The notes below the pieces were generated by a model. The model ran no database searches, had not been told where the DNA came from, and saw only the letters and a program-made list of their open reading frames with translations. From assembly GCA_030430155.1 (NCBI GenBank), contig JAUIFV010000009.1, positions 1 through 52,195 on the forward strand: a DNA stretch of 52,195 bases. The letters run 5' to 3'. Position numbers and translations under genes: made by a program. How positions within the stretch are numbered: position 1 is the first letter of the stretch; the number at the start of each line of letters is the position of its first letter. Shown here piece after piece: positions 16,226-51,433 of the stretch. The stretch comes from Gammaproteobacteria bacterium (GTDB taxonomy: Bacteria > Pseudomonadota > Gammaproteobacteria > Xanthomonadales > SZUA-5).

Positions 16226-19200
16226 CTAGCGCGCAAGGCTGCGCGCGATCGCCTGGGTTCTGGGGGGTATACCGCTGACCAGCGTCGTCTGGGCCGCGAT
16301 CTTCCGGGCTTCAGCCTGGCGGTCGCTGGCCATCAGCAGCTGAGCAAAATCCAGCTCCACCTCGATACGCGCTGAATCCCTTGGCGACAAAGCGTCGGTC
16401 CAGCGTCGAACTTCGCCGTAAAGCGCGGCGGCCTGTTCGAGCTCGCCGGCCTCAACCGCAAGCCGCGCGCTCGCCCACAGCAGCATCCAGTGCACTTTCT
16501 CGCCGCGCGCGGTGCTGGTGTCCACAGGCGTGGCGATCCGCTCTTGTGCTGCTCGCGCCAGCTCGGTCTGGCCCATGTCGATCAGCACGTGAATCGCTCT
16601 GGTCTGTGCGCTGAGGGTGTCCGGGTGATCGGCGCCGAGCACCGTCTCAAATATGCTTGCGGCCTGCTGATAGCTCGCCAAGGCGGCTTCGTTGTCACCA
16701 CCGAGCAGTTGTAAACGCGCCAGCCCCAGCAGCGAGAATCCATAGTCGTAGCTGTTTTCACCGGTGACCGAGCGGCGAAAGCTGAGCGCCTGCTGCATCA
16801 GCGCCAGGGATTCGTCAAGTCTGCCGCGTTCGCGCAGTACGTTGGCCAGGTTGTTCATGACGGTGGCCACTTCGGCATTGGGGTCGGGGCCAAAGTTGCT
16901 CCTGTAGATCCGCAGCACTTCGCGCAGGCGGGATTCGGCCAAGTTCAGGTCGCGCTGGCGAAAGGCGATTCCGGCCAGTGAGTTGAGGGCAAAGGCGCGG
17001 CTGAGGTGACTATCGCCATAGCGCTTCTCGGCGTCCGCGATGACACTCTCCAGCATGGATTGGGAGCCTTCCAGGTCGCCCAACTCTTCCAGGGCGTCTG
17101 CGCGCAGTCTGCGCATCCCCAGGGTCACCAGATGGTCCGATCCGACCAATTCGGTGGACATCGCAATGGCCCGTTGCAGACTCTTTGCAGCCGCTTCCGG
17201 ATCGCCCTTGCGGCGCTGTACGTTGGCCAGTCGAGCCAGCATCTGCGCGGCACGCAGGTGGCGCGGACCATAGTGCTGTTCAATAACCTGCAGCGCCTGC
17301 AACGCACTGCTTTCGGCGCTGTCCAGGTCGTCGCCCAGGTCGGCGGTCTTGGCCAGCACAGCCAGGCTTTCCGCGCGCTCCAGCTGATGCGCGCGCGGCA
17401 GCTGTTGCCACAGCGCCAGCGCCTCTCGGGCCGACTCCTGTGCTTGCAGATAGCGACCGGTTTCCGCCTGCAGATCGGCGAGCGTCGATAGCAGACGCGC
17501 TCGTTGTGCCTGCGCTGTACGGGTGTTCTCGATACTTTCAGTCAGGAAGGACTCGGCTTCATCAAAGCGCTGGTTGGCGGTCAGCGCGCGCGCATAATCG
17601 ACCTCCAGCTGCCCTTGGGCCTCCGCCGCGAGGGTTTCAGTCTCACGCGCTTTCTGCAGCCGCTCCAGCGCGCGCTGGGGATCGCCAGTGGCCAGAAACA
17701 GTCGCCCTACCACCGCATTCAACGAACCCTGCAGTGCCGGGTCTGCGTGCAGTTCGTGATCAATGCGGGCGGCGCCCGTATCCAGCAAATCGCGTGCTCC
17801 GAGGGCACCCAGATCGCCCAGCTCCGGGTCGATGGTTTCGAAAAGTCCGACCAGGAAGGTGTCCACTGCAGCAGCGCGTTGCGCCGCTTCCTCGGCGCGC
17901 TGGGTTTGCGTAAGCGAAACGATCAGCGCCAATAGCAGGCCGAGAAAGCTCAATGACACCAGCGCCACACCGGCGCGATGCCGGGAGATGAATTTGCCGA
18001 CCCTGTAGCCCACCGTGTCCGGACGCGCGCTGATCGGCCGTCCGTCCAGGTAGTGCTCCAGATCCTTGGCGAAGGCTTCCACTGACGGATAGCGCTCGGC
18101 AGGGTGCTTCTTCAGCGCCTTGAGCACCACGGTTTCCAGGTCGCCGGCAATGGCCTGTCGAAGTTGCGGGATATGTGCGCCACGCAGGGCCGCCAGCGAC
18201 TCGCAGTCGGACTCGGCCGGATCGGTCAGCGATAGCGACGGCCGTCGCGGCTCGCTGTCCAGGATGGCCTGTTCCAGCGCATGGCCGGCGCTGCTGCGGA
18301 TGTTGTAGGGCATGCGTCCGGTGAGCAGCTCGTACAGCAACACGCCCATGGCGTAAATGTCGGTGGCGGTGGTGATGGTCTCGTTGCGGATCTGCTCCGG
18401 AGCGGCGTAGCGCGGTGTCATCGCCTGATCCTCGGGGCGGGTCAAATCGCTCAAACCCATCAGGTCCGGGTGCAACAGCTTGGCGATGCCGAAGTCGAGC
18501 AGCTGCACCATCCGCTCGGCTGTGACCAGGATGTTGGATGGCTTCAGATCGCGGTGCACGACGAGCCGCTGGTGGGCGTGCTGCACGGCACGGCAGACCT
18601 GCAAAAACAACCGCAGCCGCTCCACTACGGTGAAGTGGCGCTCGTCGCAATAACTGGTGATCGGCTCGCCGTCGACATACTCCATGACGAAGTAGGGCCG
18701 TCCATCAGAGGCCACGCCACCGTCGAGCAGCTTGGCGATGTTGGGATGCGAGAGCGAGGCGAGGATCTGCCGCTCGCGCAGAAAGCGGGCCTGAATTGCT
18801 TCGCTTTCCTGCCCGGCACTGATCAGTTTCAGCGCCACGGTACGCTGGAACTGACCATCGGCACGCTGCGCCAGCCACACCGTGCCCATGCCGCCCTTGC
18901 CCAGCTGGCGGACCAGGCTATAGCGGCCCAGCTGAGCGCCAGGGCGATCGTAGAAGGGACTCTGAGGCTGGGCCAAGGCCTTGATCGGGTCGATGGGGCG
19001 CACCGTGAAATCGCGTAGCGAGATATCCGAATCCAGCAGCGCCAACAGTTCGTCCGCCAGTTTCGGTTGATCGCCGCACTGCGCGGTGACGAAGGCCGAG
19101 CGCTGCTCTGGATCCAACTCGCAGGCGCGTTCGAACAAATCCTGCAGTCGAGTCAGCTCGGCCGGCGATAGCCGGGCTGAGAGTGCTGCTACAGACTGCG

Positions 19201-19444
19201 CTGGTTCTTCCCAAGCCGCGACTCGGGTGGTGTTGGGCCCATCATTGCCGCGCTGTCCAGGGGTCGCGCCGCCTTGCTCCAGATCGACCGGCAGGGTGAC
19301 CTCTTCCAGCTCGCGTAGCTTGACCAGGGCCAGCGCGCGCGCCTCCAGATCCTCACCCAACTGCTCGGCGAGGAAGGCCGGGCGCTGTTCCGGAGGCAGA
19401 CTAAGGGCCTGCCGCACCACCGAATCGAGACGTTCCTCAGCCAT
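16226..19444 (-). CDS. Transmembrane Ser/Thr protein kinase with C-terminal TPRs
   Basis: A 1072-residue Hanks-type kinase. Two short N-terminal helical repeats (RLDSVVRQALSLPPEQRPAF; LQDLFERACELDPEQRSAF) precede the kinase domain (about 170-450). The domain has the glycine loop LGKGGMGTVW near 180, VALKLISAG, HRDLKPSN near 296 and DFGIAKLL. A membrane helix near 490-510 is followed by a large TPR region (about 530-1050), probably periplasmic. This architecture is typical of Lysobacterales kinases. ATG 19444 is preferred; GTG 19474 in frame is an alternative, and neither has a clear ribosome-binding site. It is divergent from a GspE-type ATPase gene. Substrates are unknown. Confidence 0.88.
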   Translation of the reverse strand: MAEERLDSVVRQALSLPPEQRPAFLAEQLGEDLEARALALVKLRELEEVTLPVDLEQGGATPGQRGNDGPNTTRVAAWEEPAQSVAALSARLSPAELTRLQDLFERACELDPEQRSAFVTAQCGDQPKLADELLALLDSDISLRDFTVRPIDPIKALAQPQSPFYDRPGAQLGRYSLVRQLGKGGMGTVWLAQRADGQFQRTVALKLISAGQESEAIQARFLRERQILASLSHPNIAKLLDGGVASDGRPYFVMEYVDGEPITSYCDERHFTVVERLRLFLQVCRAVQHAHQRLVVHRDLKPSNILVTAERMVQLLDFGIAKLLHPDLMGLSDLTRPEDQAMTPRYAAPEQIRNETITTATDIYAMGVLLYELLTGRMPYNIRSSAGHALEQAILDSEPRRPSLSLTDPAESDCESLAALRGAHIPQLRQAIAGDLETVVLKALKKHPAERYPSVEAFAKDLEHYLDGRPISARPDTVGYRVGKFISRHRAGVALVSLSFLGLLLALIVSLTQTQRAEEAAQRAAAVDTFLVGLFETIDPELGDLGALGARDLLDTGAARIDHELHADPALQGSLNAVVGRLFLATGDPQRALERLQKARETETLAAEAQGQLEVDYARALTANQRFDEAESFLTESIENTRTAQAQRARLLSTLADLQAETGRYLQAQESAREALALWQQLPRAHQLERAESLAVLAKTADLGDDLDSAESSALQALQVIEQHYGPRHLRAAQMLARLANVQRRKGDPEAAAKSLQRAIAMSTELVGSDHLVTLGMRRLRADALEELGDLEGSQSMLESVIADAEKRYGDSHLSRAFALNSLAGIAFRQRDLNLAESRLREVLRIYRSNFGPDPNAEVATVMNNLANVLRERGRLDESLALMQQALSFRRSVTGENSYDYGFSLLGLARLQLLGGDNEAALASYQQAASIFETVLGADHPDTLSAQTRAIHVLIDMGQTELARAAQERIATPVDTSTARGEKVHWMLLWASARLAVEAGELEQAAALYGEVRRWTDALSPRDSARIEVELDFAQLLMASDRQAEARKIAAQTTLVSGIPPRTQAIARSLAR

Positions 19445-19555
19445 AGACCACGCCGCTTGAGGGATACTGGTCACTCGGCGTACAGGTTAGCAGGACGCGC
19501 AGCCAGTGCGGTCAACCACTATCATGCGGTAGGACCAGGGAGTCCCCAGCCAGCC

Positions 19556-45218: not shown

Positions 45219-45235
45219 GAAGCAAGATCCGCGCT

Positions 45236-45250
45236 AAATAGGACCTAAAT
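45236..45250. promoter_or_regulatory. Candidate suf operon operator
   Basis: AAATAGGACCTAAAT contains the palindrome TAGGACCTA, about 20 bp upstream of the regulator start, in the only gap before the operon. Position fits autoregulation by the Rrf2 protein; the sequence does not clearly match a known IscR site. Confidence 0.35.
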
Positions 45251-45308
45251 GGTACCTTTTGGCGCGAGCCTCATCAAGCTGGGGCGCTCGCTGTGCGCTG
45301 CGCAGCGT

Positions 45309-46877
45309 TCAGTCCTTGCCGTCGTACTCCAGGCTGTCGGAGTCTGCTTCGCCGTCGTCCTTGCTGTCCCCGTCGTCGTCGGCGATCTTGAAACTGGCGC
45401 GGCCGAGCGACCGCTCCGGCTCCTTGATCTTGAACTTGGGCTCGGTGCTGGGCAGCGGATCAGGCTCGCGCGCCGAAAACACCGCGCGCCCGCTGATCGG
45501 GGCACCGCTGGCCGGCTCGTCAGAGCTGGCCTCCAGCTGATACTTGGCGATCTTCTCCGCCCACTCGTCGGCCGGCGCCGCTGCCGCGTCAGATTCGGCT
45601 CCGGCCTTGTCCTTCGCGGCCGCTTGCTCGCTGCCGGCCGGTTTCGGGTCGTCGCCGACCTGAAAGCTGGCACGGCCCGTAATCACCGGCGCGGCGCTGG
45701 CCTCCATGTCTTCCAGACTCAAGCCGCTCTGCTCGGCAGGCGGCGGCTGCGGCGGCGCTTTCGGTGCTGCCGGCTCAGGCGGCGTCGCGGGCGGATCCTC
45801 GGCGAGGCTGAAACTGGCTCGCCCGGCGCCGGTGCCGCCGGGAGCGGTGGTTTGCGCGGGCTTGGGCGGCACTTCCGCGGCCGGCTTGGGCTCTGCGGGT
45901 TGATCTGCTGCGGGTTGATCTGCAAGGGTGAAACTGGCCCGCCCGCCACCGGCATCGCTAATTACGGGGCTGATCTGTGCCGGTTTGGTCGGCTCACTCG
46001 CTGCCCCTGGCGGCGGCGAGCCGGCCGCGGGCTGCGCTGGTTCGGGCTCATCCGGCACGGCGAAGCTGGCTCGGCCGCTGTAGGCCGGCGTTGGCGGCTT
46101 GGCCTCAGCTGGCGGAGCCGGTTCGGGCGCGGAGTGATCGGCCTCGTCGATGGCAAAGCTGGCTCGACCGCTCGCTGCCGGAGGCGCGGCCGGAGCGGGT
46201 TCCTCGACGCCGAAACTGGCCCGGCCCTGCGGCGGCGGTGGCGGCGCTGCCGGCGTTGGCTGCTCGACCGCGAAGCTGGCGCGGCCTTGTTCTGGCGCGG
46301 CGGGTGTGGGCTGCGCCGCTGCGTCGGTCTGATCGGCATCGGCCAGCGCGGCGATGTCCGCCGCGGCGCCGGCGTCCAAGTCGGCGCCGGTTTCGGCGAA
46401 CAGCTTGGAGATGGTGCGCTCCGGCGGTGGTTCCTGCTTGGCCAGAGTAATCTCGGCGGCCTTGGCAAACAGCGACTTGATGGAGTTGATCCAGCGCTTG
46501 GCGGCAGGCGGCGGCTGCGGCGGCCCCTCCACCGGGCCGGCGGTGGGGCGTCGGCCTTGGCCGTGTGCCCGAGCGACCTTGACCGCCTCAATGGCCAATC
46601 GATCCCAGCGCAGGAAGTGGGTGTCGGGCACGATCACCCAGTCCATGCTCGGCCCGTCTCGGCCCAGCGGGTCCCAAAAACGCGCGCCGGGCAGCGCCAG
46701 CGCCTGCAGGCGCACCCGCCCTTTGAGCAGAAAGGCGGCCCAATCCTGATGCAGATACAGGAAGGCGTGACCGTTGAGCAGCGCGCAAGGCTTGCCGTAC
46801 AGCGTTCCGCTGGTAGCGCTGTGCGAGCGCACCATGTACTCGCGAATCGTGTCGAAGCGCGTACGCGCATTGGCCAT
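45309..46877 (-). CDS. TfoX-like N-domain protein with nine GRASF motifs
   Basis: A 522-residue protein. Residues about 1-110 resemble the N-terminal TfoX/Sxy (YjbR-like) fold (LYGKPCALLNGHAFLYLHQD, FWDPLGRDGPSMDWVIVP). The rest is disordered and rich in Pro, Ala, Glu and Asp, with nine short repeats of GRASF followed by a hydrophobic and an acidic residue (variants GRASFAVE, GRASFAID, GRASFTLAD, GRASFSLAED, GRASFKIAD; one GRAVF), spaced by 13-65 residues. The codons vary between repeats, so the motif is kept at protein level. It may be a scaffold for several copies of one partner. ATG 46877. Cytosolic. Function unknown. Confidence 0.8.
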   Translation of the reverse strand: MANARTRFDTIREYMVRSHSATSGTLYGKPCALLNGHAFLYLHQDWAAFLLKGRVRLQALALPGARFWDPLGRDGPSMDWVIVPDTHFLRWDRLAIEAVKVARAHGQGRRPTAGPVEGPPQPPPAAKRWINSIKSLFAKAAEITLAKQEPPPERTISKLFAETGADLDAGAAADIAALADADQTDAAAQPTPAAPEQGRASFAVEQPTPAAPPPPPQGRASFGVEEPAPAAPPAASGRASFAIDEADHSAPEPAPPAEAKPPTPAYSGRASFAVPDEPEPAQPAAGSPPPGAASEPTKPAQISPVISDAGGGRASFTLADQPAADQPAEPKPAAEVPPKPAQTTAPGGTGAGRASFSLAEDPPATPPEPAAPKAPPQPPPAEQSGLSLEDMEASAAPVITGRASFQVGDDPKPAGSEQAAAKDKAGAESDAAAAPADEWAEKIAKYQLEASSDEPASGAPISGRAVFSAREPDPLPSTEPKFKIKEPERSLGRASFKIADDDGDSKDDGEADSDSLEYDGKD

Positions 46878-47000
46878 CGCCTACCCCTGGAGCGACAACT
46901 GGCGAGCCTCAATCCTAGACCTTGCGCGGTTCGCGGCCAAGCGCAGGGCGGTCAATCGCGGCTGAATCCACAAACGGGTCACACCGGAAGGGCCAGAGCG

Positions 47001-47030
47001 AGGGCCCAGGATCCAGGGCCCAGGGCCCAG
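47001..47030. repeat. Heptad arm left of yedI-like gene
   Basis: Four G-rich heptads with the variant GGATCCA in second place. The inverted arm at 48433-48462 has the same layout (GGATTCA variant), so the two frame 1.4 kb containing the YedI-family gene. Confidence 0.8.
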
Positions 47031-47107
47031 TTGACTCAAACCCGCTGGGCGCCGAAGCCGTTCGTCGCTAAGCTCTAGGCCTTATCAAATCTCCGGAACA
47101 GCCACGC

Positions 47108-48058
47108 ATGGCCGGCAGCAGCTTCTTCATGTTGATCGACGACATCGCCACCATCCTTGATGACGTGGCGGTATTGAGCAAGGTCGCCGCAAAAAAGACC
47201 GCGGGCGTGCTTGGCGATGATCTGGCCCTCAACGCCGAGCAGGTCACCGGGGTACGCGCCGAGCGCGAGCTGCCGGTAGTCTGGGCGGTATTCAAGGGAT
47301 CGATGAAGAACAAGGCCATTCTGGTCCCCGCGGCACTGGCGATCAGCGCCTTTTTGCCCTGGCTGATCCTGCCGCTGCTGATGATCGGCGGCGGCTTCCT
47401 GTGCTACGAGGGATTTGAGAAGGTCGCCCACAAGCTGCTGCACAGCAAGGAGGAGGACGAGGCCCATCACCGCGAGCACCTGGCCAACATCGCCAACCCG
47501 CAAATTGACATGGTGGCAATGGAGAAGGACAAGATCCGCGGCGCCATCCGCACCGACTTCATCCTTTCGGCTGAGATCCTGGTGATCACCCTAGGCACCG
47601 TGGCAGCGGCAAGTTTCGGTATGCAGGTGGCGGTGATGGTGACCATCGCAGTGGCGATGACCATTGGCGTTTACGGTCTGGTCGCCGGCATCGTCAAGCT
47701 CGACGACGTGGGCCTGCACCTCGCCGCCAAACCCGGCGAAAGCGCCCTGGCCGGCGCCCGGCGCGCTCTCGGCCGCGGCATCGTCATCGGTGCTCCCTAC
47801 TTCCTCAAGTTCCTCTCCATCGCCGGTACCGCGGCGATGTTCCTGGTCGGCGGCGGCATCCTCATCCACGGCATCCCCTTCCTGCACCACCTGGTCGAAG
47901 CCTCCGGCACCAGCGCTGGCGAGGTTCCGAACGTCGGCTGGCTGCTCAAGGGCTTGACCGGGATCGGTTTGAACGCGCTGGTTGGGATTGTGGCCGGCGG
48001 GATACTGGTAGGGTTGATGACGGTTTGGACCAAGCTGCGGGGGGCCAAAGCGGCCTGA
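47108..48058 (+). CDS. DUF808/YedI-family inner membrane protein
   Basis: A 316-residue protein. It starts GSSFFMLIDDIATILDDVAV, typical of YedI, and has several membrane helices (LVPAALAISAFLPWLILPLL, ILVITLGTVAAASFGMQVAV, GLNALVGIVAGGILVGLMTV). The role in the family is unknown. It is divergent from the GRASF gene and framed by inverted heptad arms. Confidence 0.9.
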   Translation: MAGSSFFMLIDDIATILDDVAVLSKVAAKKTAGVLGDDLALNAEQVTGVRAERELPVVWAVFKGSMKNKAILVPAALAISAFLPWLILPLLMIGGGFLCYEGFEKVAHKLLHSKEEDEAHHREHLANIANPQIDMVAMEKDKIRGAIRTDFILSAEILVITLGTVAAASFGMQVAVMVTIAVAMTIGVYGLVAGIVKLDDVGLHLAAKPGESALAGARRALGRGIVIGAPYFLKFLSIAGTAAMFLVGGGILIHGIPFLHHLVEASGTSAGEVPNVGWLLKGLTGIGLNALVGIVAGGILVGLMTVWTKLRGAKAA

Positions 48059-48476: not shown

Positions 48477-51077
48477 CTACTCAAACCCATTCGCAAACAG
48501 TTCCGACTGCGGCAGCGGCCACACCCAGGCGCCGCGAGAGCGGGTCCACACGGCCAGGGTGGTGAAGCCACGGTCGATGGTCATGTCCCAGATCATCACG
48601 TTGGGCAGACCCAGGTGCTTCTGCCAGACCACCGGGTTGGCCTCCACGTCGTCGGTGAAGTACAGCCCCCAGTCGGAGCCGGCGAAGACCTGGCGCGGGT
48701 TGTTGGGATTGACCATCACGCTGTTGACCGGAATGTTCGGCAGGTTGCCGGAGACGTTGCGCCAGGTGAAGGTGGCGCAGTTGGCGGTGCAGCGGACCTG
48801 GAACACGTGGCCGGGGGTGGCCGGGGTGTTCTGGTCGAAGCCGCCGGTCACCGCATAGCCAACCAGCGGGTCGACCGGGTCGGTGACCACGTCGAGGATG
48901 AAGCGATTGGGCAGCACGGTGTTGTTGTCGGTGACGTTGACCCAGGTCGCCGAGTTGGTCACGTCCTGACCCATGTCGAAACCGAACCAGACGTTGCCGT
49001 CATTGGTGCCGGCGATGGCGACATCGGGCGTGCTGACCGCGTAGCTGAGCTGGTTGATCACCGAGCGGTCATTCAGCGTGCCCTTGGTCAGATCCGGGCT
49101 GTTGATCTTCCAGCCGGTGGTCGGGGTGCCGCCGGTGACCGACTCCCAGACCCGGAAACTGCCGGCGATGATCCGCCCGCAGCCGGTTGCGGCGGGGCAG
49201 CCTGTGGTCTCGCCGCCGTACTGGTAGAGGTTGAAGTTGGTGATGAAGGGCTTGCGGTCGCCGGCCCAGCCGCTGGGGGTAGCGCTGACCGTGGAGTTGC
49301 TGCCCAGACCGCCGGAGGCGCTGTTGGTCACCCGGATGTTGCCGTTCTGGCTGGTGTAGTACCAGCGTTGCTGGTTGATCGGCTCGATCGCGCTCCAGAA
49401 GCCGTCGCCGCCGTTGCGGACGAACCAGCGCTGGGCATCGAAATTGCCACCGGCCCAGGTCGATACCATGCATGAGTTGTCCTGGGCGCCACCCACCGCG
49501 CTGGCGTTCGGCGCGGTGTTGAAGTTGGGCGAAATGCCGCCGGAGTAGAACTCGATGGTGTTCAGGGTCTCGTTCAGTGACACCCAGGTGGGCGAGCCGG
49601 ACTGCGCATTGCCGGTGTAGTAGACGCCTCCATCGGTGCCGATCAGCAGTCGATTGGAGTCGCCGTTGACGAAGGCTCGACCATGATGATCGACGTGCGG
49701 TGCCGAACCCATGCTGGCAAAACTGGTGCCGCCGTTAGTGGTGCGATAGGTCCGCAGCGTGCTCATGATCACTGTGTCCGGATCCACCGGGTCGACAGTG
49801 ACGCCCGCGTTGTACCAGGCCTGGGTGCCGTAGGCGGAGTTGTTCGCTGACATCTGCGACCAACTGGTGCCGCCGTCGGTGGAACGCCATACCCCCAGCA
49901 TCACCGGTCCTTCGGCCGATCCCACCTGCGCGTAGATGACGCTGCTGTTGGATGGTGCGACGGCCAGATCGATACGACCGACGCTGTTGGTCGGCACCGG
50001 CACGCCGCCGCCGGTACCTGAAGGCCAACCGTTGTCGCCACGCGAAACCAGGGCCCAGTCGGTGGGACAGCCGCTGGACGGGACGGTGGCGGTGTAGACA
50101 CCGTTGGCGCCATTCTGATTCAGGTCCGGCTGCACCGCGGTTTCAAATCCGCGGGTGCCCACGGCGGCCAGTATGCGGGTCACTCCAGCGCCCATGTCGT
50201 TGACGATCAGGCCGGTGGTGTCCTGTCGCTGCGCGGTAAAGCCGTTGCTCAGGCAGGGACCGGTCCAGGTGTCGCCGGCATCGTAGGACAGGAACACGCC
50301 GGTCTTGGCGCCGACCAGGACGATGTTGGAGTTGTTCGGATCCACCACCACCTTGCCGATGGCCTGGTACTGCGGGACGCCATTGGCGCTGGGCGGGTAG
50401 AAGGGATTGAACACGTCGGCGCCCTTGACCTCCCAGCTGTCGCCGCCGTCGACCGACTTGAGGATGCCGTTGGAGCCGAAGGAGTAGGAGCCGTAGCGCA
50501 AGTCACCGGTTCCGGCGTAGAGCACGTCCGGGTTGTTCGGGTCCAAGGTCAGGTCGCCAATCGCGCTGTTCTGGATCGGCTCCATGGTCGCCGAGTTGTC
50601 GGTGGTGTTGACCCACGTGGTATTGGCATCGCAGCAGTTGGTGGTCTTCCACACGCCGCCGCCGTCAGATCCCATCCAGGCGACGTTGGGCATGGTCGGA
50701 TGGGACACCACCACGTTGGAGCGCCCAGCGACGCCGCCGCCGTTGCCCAACGGGCGGGGGCCCAGCGCGGTAAACATGGCCGGGTTCAGCGCCTCACCAG
50801 CACTGCGCTGCAGCGCAACGCCCTCAGGTATGGACTGCGGCACCTGCGCCGCTTCCAGCGCCGCCTCGCGCAGCCAGTTGGGGCTGAAGTGCCCGGTGGG
50901 GTAGCTGGCGCGGTCGGCCCAGAACGGGCCGTCATAGGCTTCTTCAGCCAGCTTGCCGGCCAGGCGTTCGCCCTCGTCGGCAGAGCCGGCGACCAGCAGC
51001 TTGCCGCTGGGTTGGGTGGCACAGCCGGCCAGAGCGCAGGCAATGGCGAGCAGGAGCGGGCGAGTAAAGCGGTTCAT
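48477..51077 (-). CDS. Secreted lipoprotein with BNR/VPS10-like propeller and FxxGFE tail
   Basis: An 866-residue protein with a lipobox signal (LLLAIACALAGC), so lipid-anchored after cleavage. The body is a large propeller with BNR-type Asp-box repeats (SVDGGDSWEV, SYDAGDTWTG, STDGGTSWSQ, TTNGGTSFAS) and Asn-Pro hinge motifs such as VDPNNSNIV, typical of VPS10/sortilin-like and sialidase-like propellers. No sialidase catalytic set is visible. It ends SELFANGFE, like the protein at 26509. ATG 51077 was chosen for the signal. It probably acts at the cell surface. A fragment of a related gene lies upstream at 51434. Confidence 0.85.
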   Translation of the reverse strand: MNRFTRPLLLAIACALAGCATQPSGKLLVAGSADEGERLAGKLAEEAYDGPFWADRASYPTGHFSPNWLREAALEAAQVPQSIPEGVALQRSAGEALNPAMFTALGPRPLGNGGGVAGRSNVVVSHPTMPNVAWMGSDGGGVWKTTNCCDANTTWVNTTDNSATMEPIQNSAIGDLTLDPNNPDVLYAGTGDLRYGSYSFGSNGILKSVDGGDSWEVKGADVFNPFYPPSANGVPQYQAIGKVVVDPNNSNIVLVGAKTGVFLSYDAGDTWTGPCLSNGFTAQRQDTTGLIVNDMGAGVTRILAAVGTRGFETAVQPDLNQNGANGVYTATVPSSGCPTDWALVSRGDNGWPSGTGGGVPVPTNSVGRIDLAVAPSNSSVIYAQVGSAEGPVMLGVWRSTDGGTSWSQMSANNSAYGTQAWYNAGVTVDPVDPDTVIMSTLRTYRTTNGGTSFASMGSAPHVDHHGRAFVNGDSNRLLIGTDGGVYYTGNAQSGSPTWVSLNETLNTIEFYSGGISPNFNTAPNASAVGGAQDNSCMVSTWAGGNFDAQRWFVRNGGDGFWSAIEPINQQRWYYTSQNGNIRVTNSASGGLGSNSTVSATPSGWAGDRKPFITNFNLYQYGGETTGCPAATGCGRIIAGSFRVWESVTGGTPTTGWKINSPDLTKGTLNDRSVINQLSYAVSTPDVAIAGTNDGNVWFGFDMGQDVTNSATWVNVTDNNTVLPNRFILDVVTDPVDPLVGYAVTGGFDQNTPATPGHVFQVRCTANCATFTWRNVSGNLPNIPVNSVMVNPNNPRQVFAGSDWGLYFTDDVEANPVVWQKHLGLPNVMIWDMTIDRGFTTLAVWTRSRGAWVWPLPQSELFANGFE

Positions 51078-51433
51078 CGGCGTTTCCGGCGGCGCGAAGG
51101 GTTCGCGGATCATCCGCGCGCGAGGGACAAATCGCAAGGAAACAAGTCAAGGTGTGGAACAACGACGGGACAGGCTCCATCGGTCGCGCTGCGGCGAGTC
51201 GATCGCATTCGACCGCTACTGCATTGCTCACTTCATGTAGAGAATCCTGGTGCGATTGCGACGAAAGCGAGAGGAGCGGGCCTATCGATGGCGCCATATC
51301 GGCACGGTTGGCGACGATTTAGCCAAAATTGCGCGGGCCATGAGCAGATTGACTCGTGACCCGCGCCGATTCCCTCATCGAAAAGCCTAGAAACGCATGG
51401 TGATGACCGGAGGCTTCTCCTGTTGCGGGTCCC
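51078..51433. other. 356-bp gene-free gap
   Basis: No gene, repeat or strong hairpin is supported here. Confidence 0.6.

Follow-up and report, generated by a model that had tools for sequence, protein, structure and literature searches.

Nine GRA[S/V]F motifs on a predicted disordered tail: a candidate docking array confined to one bacterial genus

A gene on the reverse strand of the 52,195-nucleotide stretch of gammaproteobacterial DNA that we analysed (the window) is an intact open reading frame (45309-46877, 522 aa) that carries eight GRASF words and one GRAVF word, all nine in a single frame, on a long tail behind a small folded domain (Table 1). The reading that we favour, with moderate confidence, is that of a genus-specific multivalent docking tail on a small, order-wide double-wing/TfoX-N-like domain. 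We put forward more tentatively the fuller proposal of a new multivalent scaffold, in which a protein of double-wing fold would recruit a partner via an expandable GRASF-x-[VIL]-x-[DE] array that arose from a short-tailed ancestor within one genus. Disordered tails with repeated short linear motifs are a known kind of arrangement, and the GRASF motif and the protein appear to be undescribed in the open-access literature that was searched.

Table 1. Features of the motif gene in the window (for the motifs, the residue given is the first of the word)
Feature	Residues	Position	Strand	Basis or remark
Whole gene: folded N-domain and long motif-bearing tail		45309..46877	(-)	522 aa; orthologue comparison
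N-terminal folded domain (MANARTRFDTI...), YjbR/DUF419- and TfoX-N-like fold	1-107	46557..46877	(-)	AlphaFold2, VIA, homologues
Predicted helix (AAKRWINSIKSLFAKAAE)	125-142	46452..46505	(-)	Conserved in short homologues
Predicted disordered Pro/Ala-rich acidic tail	165-522	45312..46385	(-)	pLDDT mostly 40-60, no strands; composition
Motif 1, GRASF	198	46272..46286	(-)	
Motif 2, GRASF	218	46212..46226	(-)	
Motif 3, GRASF (GRASFAIDEADH)	237	46155..46169	(-)	12 aa identical to copy 3 of G008
Motif 4, GRASF	268	46062..46076	(-)	
Motif 5, GRASF	312	45930..45944	(-)	
Motif 6, GRASF	352	45810..45824	(-)	
Motif 7, GRASF	401	45663..45677	(-)	
Short tail helix (EWAEKIAK)	438-445	45543..45566	(-)	WA[ED]KIA[KQ][YF] in 3/3 genomes
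Motif 8, GRAVF	463	45477..45491	(-)	GRATF in G008, GRAVF in G007
IKEPE between the last two motifs		45414..45428	(-)	Conserved in 3/3 genomes
Motif 9, GRASF	492	45390..45404	(-)	Exactly 29 residues past motif 8 in 3/3 genomes

The motif copies and the tail

The original prediction, made from the letters of the window, had described nine motifs written in varied codons, each followed by hydrophobic and acidic residues and separated by disordered Pro/Ala-rich linkers, and the analysis bore out each of these points. Across the 52 kb of the window, none of the remaining frames contains a GRA[S/V]F word. In each copy, the phenylalanine is followed by x-[VIL] (an alanine in the GRAVF copy) and then by an acidic residue, which gives the consensus [x]GRASF-x-[VIL]-x-[DE]; the sequence of the motif peptide is SGRASFAIDEADH. 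Four arginine codons (CGC, CGG, CGA and CGT) and three glycine codons (GGC, GGG and GGT) are used across the copies, together with AGC and AGT for serine and TTC and TTT for phenylalanine. Because 20,000 shuffled tails averaged 0.0008 matches, with a maximum of 1, the nine motifs are not a product of chance, and their repetition is real and far above what chance would yield.

The tail is 357 residues long, with 40% proline plus alanine, and is acidic (60 D/E vs 27 K/R); the motifs hold nine of its ten phenylalanines and nine of its 11 arginines. In the full-length AlphaFold2 model, it lies mostly below a pLDDT of 60 and contains no strands, and it is therefore predicted to be disordered.

Selection and origin of the copies

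Between genomes, the aligned motif codons gave a pS of 0.62-0.75 and a pN of 0-0.07, in a comparison in which the tail alignment is uncertain and the low motif pN is partly circular because the motifs were chosen by their spelling; the high pS and the many retained copies are not circular. The pN of the rest of the tail was 0.38-0.45, and the synonymous divergence of the motifs was about equal to or slightly higher than that of the N-terminal domain (pS 0.54-0.61). Copies within one protein differed from each other to a similar pattern, with a pS of 0.62-0.83 and a pN of 0.03-0.09. Serine was kept in 17 of the 20 motif copies over three genomes, and all 17 of these serines are encoded by AGC or AGT, compared with 45 AGY codons among the 87 other serines of the same genes (p = 7e-5, a nominal value given that the motif copies are related). 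Converting an AGY serine codon into a TCN one takes two steps, and the uniform use of AGY therefore suggests that the copies descend from one AGY ancestor and that the serine was kept throughout. Tandem Repeats Finder revealed no motif-sized tandem DNA array, and the copies are therefore not fresh DNA duplications. Taken from the sequences, the motif copies probably share one ancestor and have been under purifying selection.

The original prediction had held that it would fail if both the number and the spelling of the motif were random among close homologues. The number does vary, and the spelling is conserved: it is kept in the two orthologues of the same genus, G008 and G007, while the codons and linkers diverge. 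A string of docking motifs is expected to keep its spelling and to leave codons and linkers free, and thus the pattern within the genus supports the docking reading.

Distribution among relatives

In whole-genome searches, the full-length form was found in two genomes of the same Lysobacterales genus, G008 and G007, whose orthologues are 65-75% identical to the window protein over the N-terminal ~265-280 residues. The motif counts are 9 in the window, 7 in G008 and at least 4 in G007, the last being a lower bound because this orthologue runs into the end of its contig. Homologues in other genera and families of the order are short (most 145-160 aa) and motif-free, from which it follows, at the level of sequence comparison, that the motif tail was added within one genus to a small protein of older origin. 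Of the 398 sampled genomes of the order, 31 contained a match with an E value of 1e-3 or lower, one of the 31 being a weak tail-only match, and the domain is rare beyond the order, with two weak matches in 369 genomes of the class. By this sampling, the folded domain is order-wide.

Some short f4 homologues end in PEKxxGRFG or AEKPRSRFDF and resemble the last repeat (PERSLGRASF). These ends may represent the precursor of that repeat; the words are very short. An origin of the motif from the C-terminal PSFSLSKLW of sister genera was dropped, since the alignment places PSFSLSKLW on the conserved helix. A model of family 2 encapsulin cargo weakly matched one relative (E 0.01), a hit that was set aside as probably reflecting a Pro-rich stretch.

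The original prediction had also proposed a search for further proteins with several GRASF motifs. With a 12-residue motif profile, no further open reading frame carrying at least two motifs was detected in the genus, in 398 sampled genomes of the order or in 398 sampled genomes of the phylum, apart from this gene and its same-genus orthologues. Other GRASF-bearing clients were rejected on the same search, as other open reading frames gave only single weak matches.

The N-terminal domain

AlphaFold2 folds the N-terminal domain with confidence, the block mean pLDDT being ~90 or higher for residues 11-70 and for residues 81-100. According to VIA, the solved folds closest to the model are DUF419/YjbR double-wing proteins, namely 2a1v (Z 10.4, rmsd 3.4 over 105 residues), 3h9x (Z 10.0, rmsd 2.4 over 94 residues) and E. 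coli YjbR 2fki (Z 8.5), and the next closest are YdhG-like proteins. T4 MotA matched with a Z of 6.6, as did 2od0 (VP1028), which we take to be a TfoX-N-like structure (rmsd 4.2 over 97 residues), at a value under the Z that separates relatives from a common arrangement. Foldseek E values for the fold matches were weak (0.03-0.15). The model thus has the double-wing fold (MmcQ/YjbR, PF04237), as a moderate match of a predicted structure. The domain is like MmcQ/YjbR (PF04237, DUF419) in this predicted fold, with a Z of ~10 to DUF419 structures, but differs in showing 6-12% identity and no Pfam match, neither the window protein nor its relatives reaching the PF04237 gathering score. YjbR is not known to carry a motif tail.

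The earlier description of this domain as TfoX-like holds only approximately, because the window protein has no Pfam match of any kind, TfoX_N (PF04993) hits, seen in 3 of the 18 relatives, were sub-threshold at best (E 0.008) and the fold is closer to DUF419/YjbR. Weak sequence similarity in these few relatives and the 2od0 match link it to the TfoX/Sxy N-domain; it differs in that the family cut-off is not reached and that the gene here lacks a TfoX C-terminal domain and a competence context. In its fold, the N-domain resembles the double-wing DNA-binding domains of YjbR and the T4 MotA C terminus, and DNA binding is suspected for YjbR-like domains (PMC7641849).

A docking tail and its alternatives

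Under the docking reading, each motif would weakly dock the same folded partner, with the phenylalanine and the +2 aliphatic residue as putative hydrophobic anchors and the arginine and the acidic end conferring specificity. In this way, a number of partner molecules or a single oligomeric partner would be brought together by the tail at the ligand of the N-domain. With their fixed spacing and the IKEPE between them, the last two motifs look like a core two-site unit, and the copies upstream of them look like an expandable array. As in known scaffolds of this type, a short motif recurs in several conserved copies within a region predicted to be disordered. EPYC1 of the pyrenoid is a disordered multi-motif scaffold with variable linkers. 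CsoS2 of the alpha-carboxysome also combines a disordered region, several copies of one short motif and variable linkers, and each of its motifs binds Rubisco (PMC10614612). Both differ from the present protein in their motif; the GRASF tail is attached to a folded domain of double-wing/TfoX-like type, and no carboxysome context was seen. The multivalent scaffold of the original prediction is therefore sustained in part: predicted disorder, kept spelling and diverging codons and linkers argue for it, whereas AlphaFold2 places no motif on the protein's own domain and no gene neighbour is conserved outside the genus. Against the docking reading also stand the single motif-repeat gene in the genome, so that no client family shares the address, and a copy number that is not fixed.

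The main rival, which we consider unlikely, is that the motifs are multisite phosphorylation sites at which a Hanks-type kinase would modify the tail's charge or its binding. The R-A-S-hydrophobic core resembles kemptide-like substrates of basophilic kinases, the genome itself encodes 39-40 Hanks-type kinase domains (PF00069) and 19 FHA matches, one kinase-TPR gene lies within the window at 16226-19474 (-), and the serine is retained in most copies. However, the penultimate copy has valine in two genomes and threonine in G008, indicating that the hydroxyl is dispensable in some copies, and the phenylalanine, the glycine and the +2 aliphatic residue are also conserved, which is more than a kinase site requires. 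In addition, FHA domains prefer phospho-Thr, and near-complete genomes of other, motif-free genera of the family are equally kinase-rich, with 29-54 kinases.

A low probability is likewise assigned to self-association, in which the motifs of one protein molecule would bind the N-domain of another. Since the motif repeats are confined to this gene, the N-domain is the sole certain co-occurring partner. Type III secretion chaperones bind extended peptides, and some of them match the N-domain model at a low Z of 3.5-4.6. Nevertheless, the N-domain is conserved across the order in motif-free proteins, and the motifs have low pLDDT and form no strands in the full-length model. Judged by confidence and secondary structure, that model predicts no docking of the motifs onto their own N-domain, and docking in cis was rejected on this basis, as a weak negative because only three long-tailed sequences served as input.

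Quite improbable, too, is an entropic spacer of low complexity, in which the motifs would be passive by-products of past duplication. The varying copy number and the Pro/Ala-rich linkers would fit a spacer, but the synonymous sites of the motifs have diverged as elsewhere and the protein word survives where the linkers do not; this selection pattern disfavours the spacer reading. Finally, a nucleic-acid-binding extension with AT-hook-like GR words would suit the DNA-binding relatives of the N-domain, but is very improbable for an acidic tail whose word is GRA, not the GRP of the AT-hook core, and whose copies run into hydrophobic and acidic residues.

Few bacterial systems of disordered proteins with repeated docking motifs are known. 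Here, short-tailed relatives coexist with 7-copy and 9-copy orthologues, so that one can trace how a motif array arises and expands, and a single peptide suffices to test so short a motif. A partner, if found, would give a first function to an uncharacterised order-wide domain.

Genomic neighbourhood

Within the genus, the gene adjoins an Rrf2 regulator and the suf operon, and a DUF808 gene is also a neighbour in the window and in G008. In the rest of the order, the gene has different surroundings, and no conserved gene neighbour was found outside the genus; examination of the neighbours, which the original prediction had recommended, thus pointed to no partner. At 45219-47108 of the window, the motif gene has the opposite orientation to its orthologues in G007 and G008, although its neighbours are the same (Rrf2, and DUF808 in G008). 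Long inverted repeats flanking the gene were not found, and a phase-variable inversion was rejected for that reason. The 886-residue protein encoded at 48477-51137 (-) has a lipoprotein-like start and a sub-threshold Sortilin-Vps10 match only, and it is kept beside the motif locus in G008.
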